From Auritidibacter sp. Marseille-P8566 (GTDB taxonomy: Bacteria > Actinomycetota > Actinomycetes > Actinomycetales > Microbacteriaceae): a stretch of DNA of 50,529 nt. Of this stretch, positions 19,805 to 30,613 are shown piece by piece. Position numbers and translations under genes: made by a program. Position 1 is the stretch's first letter. Every line of letters starts with the position of its first letter. The notes beneath the pieces were generated by a model, which was given only the letters and a program-made list of their open reading frames with translations, ran no database searches and was not told the DNA's origin. The stretch spans positions 1 to 50,529 of the forward strand of contig CAMDEV010000002.1 in the NCBI GenBank assembly GCA_945896925.1, in the 5' to 3' direction.

Positions 19805-19880
19805 TCCTCGGTAGCTCAATTGGCAGAGCAATCGGCTGTTAACCGATAGGTTCTTGGTTCGAGTCCAAGCCGGGGAGCCA
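19805..19880 (+). tRNA. tRNA-Asn (anticodon GTT), CCA encoded
   Basis: TCCTCGG...CTGTTAA...GGTTCGAGTCC...CCGGGGAGCCA; cloverleaf arms pair. Confidence 0.95.
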
Positions 19881-19906: not shown

Positions 19907-21163
19907 ATGTTTCTCTGGATCAGAGACCAGAAATGGCTCCCAACCATTTGTTTAGCCCTTATCGCACTTGTTGTCTTTGGGGTTAGCGATTATCTCTTCC
20001 AAGGAATCGATACATTACCTGCAACCTTGCTTCTGGTTAGTTCCGTAGCATTCTCAAGAGCCTTGCCTTGGCTTTCTATCGCATTATTCTCAGTTGGAAT
20101 CTTGACTCCACAGTTCCTCGATCTAGACCCTCAGTTAGCTCAGTTGCTAGCAACTTTTAGCCTCTTGGTTCTAGCTGCATATGGAACAAAGTTGCAGCGA
20201 AGAGTTGGATACGCACTCAATGTGGTTATGGGTATCGCATCTTTTGTTTGGTTGCTTATAACTCTTCCGGTTGGTGGGTCTTTCTATGGAATTGAACTGC
20301 CAACGCTTGAGTCTAAGTATGTAATCTTTACTGCAGGTTTCGTTGCCATGATTGCTGTGAACGCCAACGCTTGGTTCTTCGGCAGGTTGCTTATCACTCG
20401 TATCACTCACGTAGGAACAGATTTCGATCGAGCAATCTTGGAACGAGAAATTGCAACAACTCAGTTATCTCTTGCAGAGCAGGATAGACGCTTCGAGATT
20501 GCAAGAGATGTGAATGATTTACTGCTTGAGCAAGTGAGTGCGACTCTGACCTCGGCCGAAGCTGGCATTTATGCGGCAAAGTCTGATCCAACTGTTGCAC
20601 CTAGAATCTTGGAAAACATTTTTGAAGGTGTGAAGAAAGCTCATGCTGAAATCAGACGCCTGAGCGACCTACTTGGTCTTCAAGATGTGAAAGCACTAGC
20701 GCTACCAGGACTTAGAGATCTTCCAAAGACATTTGTCAGTTACCGTGAGTTTGGTTATGGAGTGAACTACCGCTTAACCGGTGAGCCGCTAAGTCTTGAT
20801 GATGGTGCCGAACTCGTTCTATACAGAATTGTTTTCGACTCGCTGGAGAACATCAGGCAACACACTCCTCAGGGAACGGAAGTCGATGTTGATTTCATCT
20901 GGCAGGGAGATGCCATGCAGGTGGTTATCAAAGACAACGGTGAAGAAACTAGAAACCGTTTAGAGCAGGCAATCTCTGGATATACCGCCCAAGAGGATCA
21001 CCGAGCACTGGTTGAAAGACCAACCGGAGCAAACCTCAATGCTCTTCAGGAAAGAGCTGCTCTTTACGAAGGTGCTATCGAGTTTGGCAAAGTTCCAGGT
21101 GTTGGATTCACAGTTTCTGCTGCATTCCCAAACATTGCTAAGTATCGGAAAGCAACTAACTAA
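19907..21163 (+). CDS. Membrane histidine-kinase-like protein (HisKA_3/HATPase type) with degenerate H-box (probable pseudokinase)
   Basis: N-terminal TM segments; FEIARDVNDLLLEQVSATL aligns with HisKA_3 'R-x-V-H-D-LL' but has N for H; ENIRQHT N-box, DNG, GANLNALQERA; start 19907 preceded by GGAGGA. Confidence 0.75.
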   Translation: MFLWIRDQKWLPTICLALIALVVFGVSDYLFQGIDTLPATLLLVSSVAFSRALPWLSIALFSVGILTPQFLDLDPQLAQLLATFSLLVLAAYGTKLQRRVGYALNVVMGIASFVWLLITLPVGGSFYGIELPTLESKYVIFTAGFVAMIAVNANAWFFGRLLITRITHVGTDFDRAILEREIATTQLSLAEQDRRFEIARDVNDLLLEQVSATLTSAEAGIYAAKSDPTVAPRILENIFEGVKKAHAEIRRLSDLLGLQDVKALALPGLRDLPKTFVSYREFGYGVNYRLTGEPLSLDDGAELVLYRIVFDSLENIRQHTPQGTEVDVDFIWQGDAMQVVIKDNGEETRNRLEQAISGYTAQEDHRALVERPTGANLNALQERAALYEGAIEFGKVPGVGFTVSAAFPNIAKYRKATN

Positions 21164-21838
21164 GTGGCAGCAGATATAAGAGTTGCTCTAGTTGGGGGAT
21201 CAGATGCTTTGAGATCTTCTAGAAGAGAAATTATCTCAACTGCTAAACACCTCAAAGTCATTCACGATTCTGATGGCTTTGGGTTGACCCCAGCGGAATT
21301 AATAGAAATAAACTTTGATGTTGCAGTAATTGAACTTCGGTTAGAAGGTCAATCAGCGCTTGAATACATCAGAACTATGTTCGTACTTGCCAAGATCTCA
21401 AAGCAAACCTTTGGTCGAATAATTATTGCAACTCAGTTCAGTGAAGAGAAACTAAGGCTTGAAGCGATTCAGGCTGGAGCAGTTGATGCAGTGTTTGTTA
21501 GCGATGGAATGCAGTCGCTGATATCAAAGATTGAGCTATGTGCGGATGAAATAGCCGATTACGCAATACGAGAGTTGCTTCCATCACTACCTAAGCCTGA
21601 GTTGTCACAAGAGGAGTACCAGCAGGTGTCTGTTGCCCTGGATACCTTAGATGAAAAAGAAGCCAAGGTACTCAAAGGTTTCTGTGAGCTAAAGACCGAT
21701 TCTCAAATTTCCAGTGCTGTCCACGTTCCAAAACTAAAGGTACGTCAGACGTTAGCTAAGGTTCAGAACCTATTGTTGTTAGACACCAGATCGCAGCTTC
21801 TTTTGAAGATGTTCAACCTGGGTGCTTTAGCCCTCTAG
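21164..21838 (+). CDS. Response-regulator-like protein with atypical receiver and LuxR-type HTH
   Basis: FDVAVIELRLEGQSALEYI aligns with 'PDVxLLDLxLPGxxGLE' with E for D; C-terminal LDEKEAKVLKGFCELKTDSQISSAVHVPKLKVRQTLAKVQNLL. Confidence 0.75.
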   Translation: MAADIRVALVGGSDALRSSRREIISTAKHLKVIHDSDGFGLTPAELIEINFDVAVIELRLEGQSALEYIRTMFVLAKISKQTFGRIIIATQFSEEKLRLEAIQAGAVDAVFVSDGMQSLISKIELCADEIADYAIRELLPSLPKPELSQEEYQQVSVALDTLDEKEAKVLKGFCELKTDSQISSAVHVPKLKVRQTLAKVQNLLLLDTRSQLLLKMFNLGALAL

Positions 21839-28830: not shown

Positions 28831-29928
28831 CTAGAAATCAAGTTTTGCGCGAAATTCGGTCAACCCCCGGTCATTGAGTGATAGCTCCCAAGAACCGTGT
28901 AGGTTAGCCACCCAGGTATCGATGATTGCTGTGCCGGTTCCTTTATTCAGTGCGCTGGAGTTAAGTGGCGCTCCATCATTTGTAATCACCAGAGTTAAAC
29001 TTTGCTTATTCGTCTGGATAAGTTCTATCTCGATATTCTTGGCAGCCCCGTGAACAGCGGCATTTAGGGTAACCTGTTCGGTTATTCGATAGAGAGCTAA
29101 GCCTATAGATTTAAGTCGAGAGTACTCAACTCCGTTGGCTCTGATATTGATTTTCACAGTGTTTCGGTAAACGTCAAGTAGTGGGGTCAATAGAGAATCA
29201 AAAGTCAGAACGTCTAAATTTGGTGAAAGCGCTCTGCTAGCGTCTCTGATCTCAATTCTTCTCATAAGTTCGAGTTCATCAACAATTGATTGGAATCGGC
29301 TTCTAGTGGCTGGAGGAACGCTCTTCATAGCTTCAAGAAGTTGGTGATTTATAACGACGAGACCCGATTGCAGCGTGTTATGAAGATATTTTGAGACTAA
29401 CTCTCGTGTTTCTTCCTCTGATTCGATAATTAGACTTCGCTGTTTCACTAATTCTTTAACAAGCTCCTCCTTGGCTGTTAGCTCCTCATTTAGGCGGTTA
29501 GCGACGACCGTCGAAATGATCTGAAATAGAAGTAAAGCGGTGAAGATTCTCAAGGCGGCTCTTGAGAAATCTATGGTTGGATCTGGAAAAAAAACATTCA
29601 CTAGGAAATAGTGTGGAGCAATCCAAAAGATGTTGGCTGCAATGTAGATAAGAAACTTAAGTGAAATCTTTGTTTGTGAAGAAATTAACTTTTTAGAGTA
29701 GTTCAGAATCAGAGATAATCCGACTATAAGAAAAAAGATGCCGGCAATGACGCTTAACGCTGTCTTTACTGTCCATGCCACCGTGAGCGAGGGCTGTGCA
29801 ACAGATAGCGTGACCGATGTGGCACCTATCATTGCGGCTACAACGGCAGGGGTTTGATAATGCCATGGTGCCTTTGCTGCGGGAACGATGGAATTTCTGA
29901 GGTTTAGGCCTTTCTCGAACCTAGTCAT
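28831..29928 (-). CDS. Membrane sensor histidine kinase-like protein
   Basis: TM segments; SKYLHNTLQSGLVVINHQL with His retained; LYRITEQVTLNAAVHG; LVITNDGAPLNSS; next to response regulator. Confidence 0.75.
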   Translation of the reverse strand: MTRFEKGLNLRNSIVPAAKAPWHYQTPAVVAAMIGATSVTLSVAQPSLTVAWTVKTALSVIAGIFFLIVGLSLILNYSKKLISSQTKISLKFLIYIAANIFWIAPHYFLVNVFFPDPTIDFSRAALRIFTALLLFQIISTVVANRLNEELTAKEELVKELVKQRSLIIESEEETRELVSKYLHNTLQSGLVVINHQLLEAMKSVPPATRSRFQSIVDELELMRRIEIRDASRALSPNLDVLTFDSLLTPLLDVYRNTVKINIRANGVEYSRLKSIGLALYRITEQVTLNAAVHGAAKNIEIELIQTNKQSLTLVITNDGAPLNSSALNKGTGTAIIDTWVANLHGSWELSLNDRGLTEFRAKLDF

Positions 29929-30613
29929 CGCCGAACCAACCCAGATCAGGGTTCGACCTTAGATAGCGAAGAACTGCGGTAGTTCTCAAATCTGTGCCTG
30001 GTTCTGGATCTGGTACGAGAATCTTATATATCTTGGTCAACTCGGCTCGAACGGTAATCGGTGCCAGGCCAAGCTCTTGAGAAGTCTTGCCAGTGTCATA
30101 ACCCTGACATAGCAGGGACATGAGCTTTATTTGCCTCGGGTTAAGTTGCCTGAAATATTCAGCAGATGATGGGCTTGCTTCCTCGGCCTTAACGTTGTGG
30201 CTTTTACCTAAAGCGGAGTCAACTAGCACTCTAGAGATGTATTTACCGTCCAGTTCTGCGGTCTTTGCGATAGTAGACCAACCCATGTAGTAGTCACCTT
30301 GATCGGTTGGTTTAGCGCTTGAGGCGTATTGGGAGAAGAATACGATTCCAATGTCTGAGTTTCTGGATCTAATTTGATGTGCTAACTCAATTCCGGAAAT
30401 GCTGCTTTGACCTAGAGAGATGTCCAGCAGCGCAGCATGGAACACTTGACTGTCTATTTTTGCCAAAGCGTCCGCACTGTTGCCAACACTCACAATCTCA
30501 AGTTCAGGCTGATTTCTAAGTAGCTTTGAAACGATGCTTAAAAGCGTTGGATCGTCCTCTACGTAAATGACCCTAGTTTTTTTCAAGTGGACCTCTGGGA
30601 ATCTCTCCAGCAC
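29921..30613 (-). CDS. Response regulator, receiver plus LuxR-type HTH
   Basis: RVIYVEDDPTLLSIV, AALLDISLGQSSISGIEL; LNPRQIKLMSLLCQGYDTGKTSQELGLAPITVRAELTKIYKIL. Confidence 0.82.
   Translation of the reverse strand: MLERFPEVHLKKTRVIYVEDDPTLLSIVSKLLRNQPELEIVSVGNSADALAKIDSQVFHAALLDISLGQSSISGIELAHQIRSRNSDIGIVFFSQYASSAKPTDQGDYYMGWSTIAKTAELDGKYISRVLVDSALGKSHNVKAEEASPSSAEYFRQLNPRQIKLMSLLCQGYDTGKTSQELGLAPITVRAELTKIYKILVPDPEPGTDLRTTAVLRYLRSNPDLGWFGDD

Follow-up and report, generated by a model that had tools for sequence, protein, structure and literature searches.

The gene pair at the locus

The window analysed here is a stretch of 50,529 nucleotides from a draft genome (0.94 Mb, 71% complete) of a species taken to belong to Rhodoluna, a genus of tiny freshwater bacteria. 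Next to a tRNA-Asn gene it carries two adjacent genes, coding for a histidine-kinase-like and a response-regulator-like protein. Both frames are open and intact; a GGAGG ribosome-binding site lies immediately 5' of the ATG codon of the first gene, the stop codon of which directly abuts the GTG start of the second. The features are as follows.

19805..19880, plus strand: tRNA-Asn(GTT), a constant neighbour of the pair
19907..21163, plus strand: predicted pseudo-histidine kinase of HisKA_3 type, ATG start, with membrane N-terminus, DHp and HATPase_c
20513..20515, plus strand: Asn (AAT) at the phospho-acceptor His site, from codon and Rhodoluna alignment
20516..20518, plus strand: Asp following the acceptor site, kept; acidic in 62 of 63 Rhodoluna proteins
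20528..20530, plus strand: Glu (GAG) where the HisKA_3 DxxxQ phosphatase motif has Gln, a residue kept by 49 of 63 Rhodoluna proteins
20849..20851, plus strand: N-box Asn of the ATP-binding domain, kept; 98% in Rhodoluna
20933..20935, plus strand: G1-box Asp, invariant; 100% in Rhodoluna
21164..21838, plus strand: atypical response regulator of NarL/FixJ type, GTG start, with pseudo-receiver and LuxR-type HTH
21194..21199, plus strand: Gly-Gly replacing the acidic pair (VGGSD), from codons and alignment
21332..21334, plus strand: Glu (GAA) at the acceptor Asp, Glu57, from codons and alignment

Some 8 kb further downstream, an open reading frame on the minus strand (29921-30613) has a significant receiver match (PF00072).

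Residues and folds of the two proteins

The acceptor-site Asn of the kinase-like protein is Asn203 when numbered from the ATG, or 207 if the longer open reading frame with its TTG start is used, and, to judge by this codon, phosphotransfer at the normal His is impossible. The D/ExxxQ phosphatase motif is absent as well, the window reading DxxxE. The HATPase_c domain is present with its N, G1 and G2 boxes, including the G1-box Asp, the adenine-binding residue of such domains; from these motifs, ATP binding by the protein is plausible. A previous sequence-only reading of this DNA had stated that the nucleotide-binding elements remain, which is true of most residues; the G2 segment (GANLNALQERA), however, is without the second Gly of the usual GxG, a residue kept in 61% of Rhodoluna proteins.

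In the regulator, the conserved-Lys region reads AVFVSDG and contains no Lys, while the Thr of the T/S site is present (IATQF). Only T is thus left of the five receiver residues, which places the protein among the pseudo-receivers or atypical response regulators, defined as receivers without at least one of D, DD, T and K (PMC12632262). Both substituted acceptor codons, as well as the missing acidic pair and Lys, were found exactly as the sequence-only reading had claimed.

Its view of the two proteins as kinase-like (HisKA_3) and response-regulator-like is borne out by Pfam, by AlphaFold2 models and by fold matches in the PDB. For the kinase-like protein, HATPase_c scores above the Pfam cut-off and HisKA_3 slightly under it (22.3 vs 24 bits); for the regulator, Response_reg is under the cut-off (18.9 vs 30.2) and Pfam gives no HTH match. 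The low HisKA_3 and Response_reg scores are expected, since motif residues have been lost. The kinase-like model (pLDDT 83.6) consists of a multi-helix membrane part, with weak similarity to DUF7134, followed by DHp and CA domains, and matches DesK, DivL and other histidine kinases. The regulator model (pLDDT 93.6) comprises a receiver and a four-helix HTH, its top fold matches being the NarL/LuxR-family regulators VraR, LiaR, NarL and DesR, and the protein probably binds DNA through this LuxR-type HTH.

Conservation and selection in Rhodoluna

The genus set comprised 67 Rhodoluna genomes, with the kinase-like gene found in 63 and the regulator gene in 60, and the two are adjacent, at a single syntenic position, wherever both sit on one contig. 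The 63 kinase-like proteins that cover the acceptor site (the window's included) have Asn (28), Ser (21), Thr (13) or Ala (1) there, and never His. The reported frequency of a missing His is 0.3% of HisKA_3 domains (56 of 16,025), and that of a missing Asp 2.0% of receivers (PMC12632262); set against the former rate, absence from 63 of 63 proteins is more than chance. No convincing replacement His was found in these 63 proteins, nor any likely substitute of the kind that the earlier reading had considered: the most conserved are the N-box His (86%) and, next, a residue of the membrane-linker region (75%). The first G2 Gly is retained in 98% of the genus, and the second G1 Gly position is occupied by Glu in Rhodoluna and by Arg in the rest of the family. 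Seven high-quality Rhodoluna genomes were examined for a second HisKA_3 protein and none has one, so no sister HisKA_3 kinase is at hand as a phosphate donor; other canonical kinases and regulators are present in the genomes. The protein L089, from genome G052, departs from the other Rhodoluna in that its N, G1 and G2 boxes are damaged, and may represent a single decaying lineage.

The regulators are less uniform. Their acceptor site is Asp in 45 of 60, Glu in 10, Asn in 2, Gly in 2 and Ala in 1; the first acidic residue is Asp in 34 of 60, and the Lys of the conserved position is absent from all 60. With the acceptor Asp retained in most of them, and the first acidic residue in many, regulators beyond the window's clade may still undergo some phosphate chemistry. 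This clade comprises 13 genomes, 12 of them with a usable regulator, and there Gly-Gly replaces the acidic pair, the Lys is missing, and the acceptor alternates between Asp (7) and Glu (5). Glu is the commonest replacement in aspartate-less receivers (PMC4395418). The suggestion that it mimics phospho-Asp in the window is weak, given this alternation and the prior loss of the acidic pair and Lys.

The phosphatase-motif Gln has become Glu or Asp in the 13 genomes of the window's clade and in G027, and is still Gln in the remaining 49. Wherever the regulator is usable, loss of this Gln is accompanied by loss of the regulator's acidic residue, and the latter is also seen without the former; a link between the two is only suggestive, as the pattern was spotted post hoc and reflects no more than about two events. 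The regulator of two relatives (L077 and L078, genomes G041 and G042) consists of a receiver alone, without HTH, and in G003, G004, G010 and G013 the HTH is degraded; DNA binding is hence not what all of these regulators have as their output.

Selection was assessed as pairwise Nei-Gojobori dN/dS on 20 pairs of close relatives, many of which have saturated dS and hence no ratio. The kinase-like gene gave values of 0.03-0.08, with its DHp-CA half at 0.02-0.06 and its membrane half higher (0.04-0.30); the window's own copy gave two usable ratios, 0.033 and 0.039. Ratios for the regulator, where dS was computable, were 0.05-0.09, and it changes more rapidly than the kinase core. Purifying selection on both genes is strong in the genus (dN/dS mostly 0.03-0.09). 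For the window's regulator itself the comparisons have saturated dS or run off the end of the relative's contig and yield no ratio, and its intact frame together with 65-67% identity to the nearest relatives suggests that it is not decaying. With its His gone and its gene under purifying selection, the kinase-like protein is a candidate for the pseudo-histidine kinases, homologues that lack a core function yet retain a part in signalling, a role that is putative here.

These data uphold the earlier view that selection and not decay has shaped the pair: ratios are low, frames are open, and the kinase-like gene persists in 63 of 67 genomes. Two broader claims of the sequence-only reading stand in part. 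The pair was said to have departed from His-Asp phosphotransfer, and there is indeed no His at the normal site, but most other Rhodoluna regulators keep their Asp. The partners were also said to have degenerated together; both are degenerate in the window, but the process was stepwise, the His having been lost by the base of the genus and the regulator residues later and unevenly.

The wider family in Microbacteriaceae

The locus follows a recurring order, dnaG, a dehydrogenase-like gene (hydroxyacid dehydrogenase-like), tRNA-Asn, the kinase-like gene, in some cases AzlC, def, a transporter-like gene and a glycosyltransferase, and this order allows syntenic orthologues to be named. In the other Microbacteriaceae these are mostly proteins of about 300-340 aa with one membrane helix. 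A further orthologue, G092, has Gln at the acceptor site and, by eye, no evident N-terminal membrane helix. No short orthologue was found outside the Microbacteriaceae in an order-level sample of 119 genomes at E <= 1e-45, a threshold that would miss diverged ones, and the order-level matches outside the family spanned the membrane part too.

Among 92 syntenic family rows the acceptor site is His in 55 and another residue in 37 (Gln 22, Gly 8, Asn 2, Leu 2, Asp 2, Phe 1). The residue was gained or lost at least nine times on the family tree, a quick tree with SH-aLRT support only, and it is present in all of the kinases used as outgroups, 26 of DUF7134 type and 9 neighbouring canonical ones, so that the direction is most simply loss. 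On the evidence of this tree the acceptor His is dispensable for the core role of the family protein, because it has come or gone so often in a family whose outgroup kinases all possess it. Orthologues with canonical His, which the earlier reading had regarded as evidence against itself, do exist in other genera of the Microbacteriaceae, but there are none in Rhodoluna and the loss is repeated in the family. The Gln position of DxxxQ is variable outside Rhodoluna (His, Leu, Gln, Arg, Ala).

A branch with SH-aLRT 99.7 sets Rhodoluna together with the syntenic family apart from the other sequences. An orthology of the Rhodoluna proteins with the DUF7134-type kinases was considered and rejected as the poorer topology, its tree being 24 log units worse, with a p-AU of 0.086 at which it is not formally rejected. 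The first topology run included the poorly aligned L106-L108, which fell among Rhodoluna; the second was made without these and without the long Rhodoluna rows G052 and G062, so that more than one thing changed between the two runs.

In many Rhodoluna (L155-L207, e.g. L204:5928-6599) the regulator gene is followed by one resembling AzlC; in other genera such a gene comes after the pseudo-kinase, and the window's clade has none. In several larger Microbacteriaceae genomes (L202, L205, L223 and L201), a canonical His-bearing kinase and a LuxR-type regulator adjoin the kinase-like orthologue. The Rhodoluna regulator may have been derived from such a canonical regulator adjoining the family gene. 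Pseudo-kinase orthologues with no such regulator alongside occur in Pontimonas-type g30, g67, Cryobacterium and G092.

Proposed mechanism and alternatives

We propose that a nucleotide-binding membrane pseudo-histidine kinase controls the atypical regulator by direct contact and not by phosphotransfer, a proposal that we hold to have about an even chance of being correct. The membrane-anchored protein, which keeps its DHp region and a CA domain of nucleotide-binding type, would not autophosphorylate at the normal site; nucleotide occupancy and the membrane part would instead determine which conformation the DHp/CA core adopts, and this core would hold or release the regulator through direct DHp-receiver contact. 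No Asp phosphorylation would then be involved when, in the window's species, the regulator acts by way of its LuxR-type HTH. The conserved DHp and nucleotide core, the faster-evolving membrane part and the adjacent pseudo-receiver fit such contact-based conformational control. That the two proteins interact is suggested by the adjacency of their genes, and we infer likewise ATP binding, dimerisation, partner contact, DNA binding, the direction of control and the signal.

A rather unlikely alternative is that the protein has lost its kinase activity and serves as a phosphatase-only sensor, dephosphorylating the regulator by means of the HisKA_3 DxxxQ motif, for which the His would be unneeded. 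The motif is the phosphatase motif of NarX (PMC3510030), HisKA_3 phosphatase activity does not require the His (PMC12632262), and the Gln of D/ExxxQ and the acceptor Asp persist in 49 of 63 kinase-like proteins and 45 of 60 regulators, respectively. Nevertheless, the window's clade has Glu or Asp for this Gln and a regulator without the acidic pair, the Lys is gone from all 60 regulators, the Gln position is variable outside Rhodoluna, and a phosphatase activity as the general role of HisKA_3 pseudo-histidine kinases is opposed by PMC12632262. We regard this explanation as a serious one for the other Rhodoluna, not for the window's clade.

It is similarly improbable that the two proteins have separate roles, the regulator binding DNA constitutively, with an activity that depends on how strongly it is expressed, and the pseudo-kinase having an unrelated role in the membrane. 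The orthologues that lack an adjoining regulator and the faster evolution of the regulator relative to the kinase core are consistent with this, but adjacency throughout Rhodoluna and the abutting stop and start codons in the window speak for a joint function. An unconventional phosphorelay, in which the regulator receives its phosphate from another DHp residue, a different kinase or acetyl phosphate, appears very unlikely; canonical kinases and regulators occur elsewhere in the genomes and many Rhodoluna regulators retain the Asp, but no substitute His is likely and the window's regulator is without D, DD and K. Conversion of the pair into pseudogenes in a streamlining genome is scarcely credible, as the several lost catalytic residues and the damaged boxes of G052 are outweighed by the open reading frames and by persistence in 63 of 67 small genomes, and the dN/dS values rule out decay for the genus generally.

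Relation to known systems

The pair shares its fold, domain order, membrane anchor and gene adjacency with DesK-DesR and other HisKA_3/NarL-type systems, and differs from these in lacking the acceptor His and Asp, the acidic pair and the Lys and, in the window's clade, the phosphatase Gln. DivL of Caulobacter, which acts in signalling, likewise has no acceptor His and keeps its DHp and CA domains; DivL, however, is reported to sense whether a response regulator is phosphorylated (PMC4211667), whereas here the neighbouring regulator is a pseudo-receiver. The aspartate-less or pseudo-receiver regulators ChxR, RitR, JadR1 and RedZ have the same receiver fold with the phosphorylation site lost, but here the pseudo-receiver adjoins its own pseudo-histidine kinase and the arrangement is conserved genus-wide. 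Pseudo-histidine kinases are integrated in signalling and pseudo-receivers are controlled by ligands, dimerisation or modification (PMC12632262); the same review, from 2025, describes the way in which the latter are switched as a mystery.

The two proteins each belong to a known kind. In the literature searched, which was covered in part, we found no paper on such an adjacent, genus-conserved pair or on recurrent His loss in a HisKA_3 family. With the preferred reading of direct contact, the pair could be a phosphate-free 'two-component' system in which nucleotide occupancy of the kinase core switches a pseudo-receiver transcription factor, within a family that repeatedly sheds its His; we advance this broader idea tentatively and consider it somewhat doubtful. 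The loci form a graded series, with the His present in other genera, the Asp in most relatives and both gone in the window, which offers a natural test set for phosphate-free signalling by the two-component fold. The His-less sequences of the family, 63 in Rhodoluna and 38 elsewhere, outnumber the 56 of the census in PMC12632262, a comparison that is indicative only as the samples differ.
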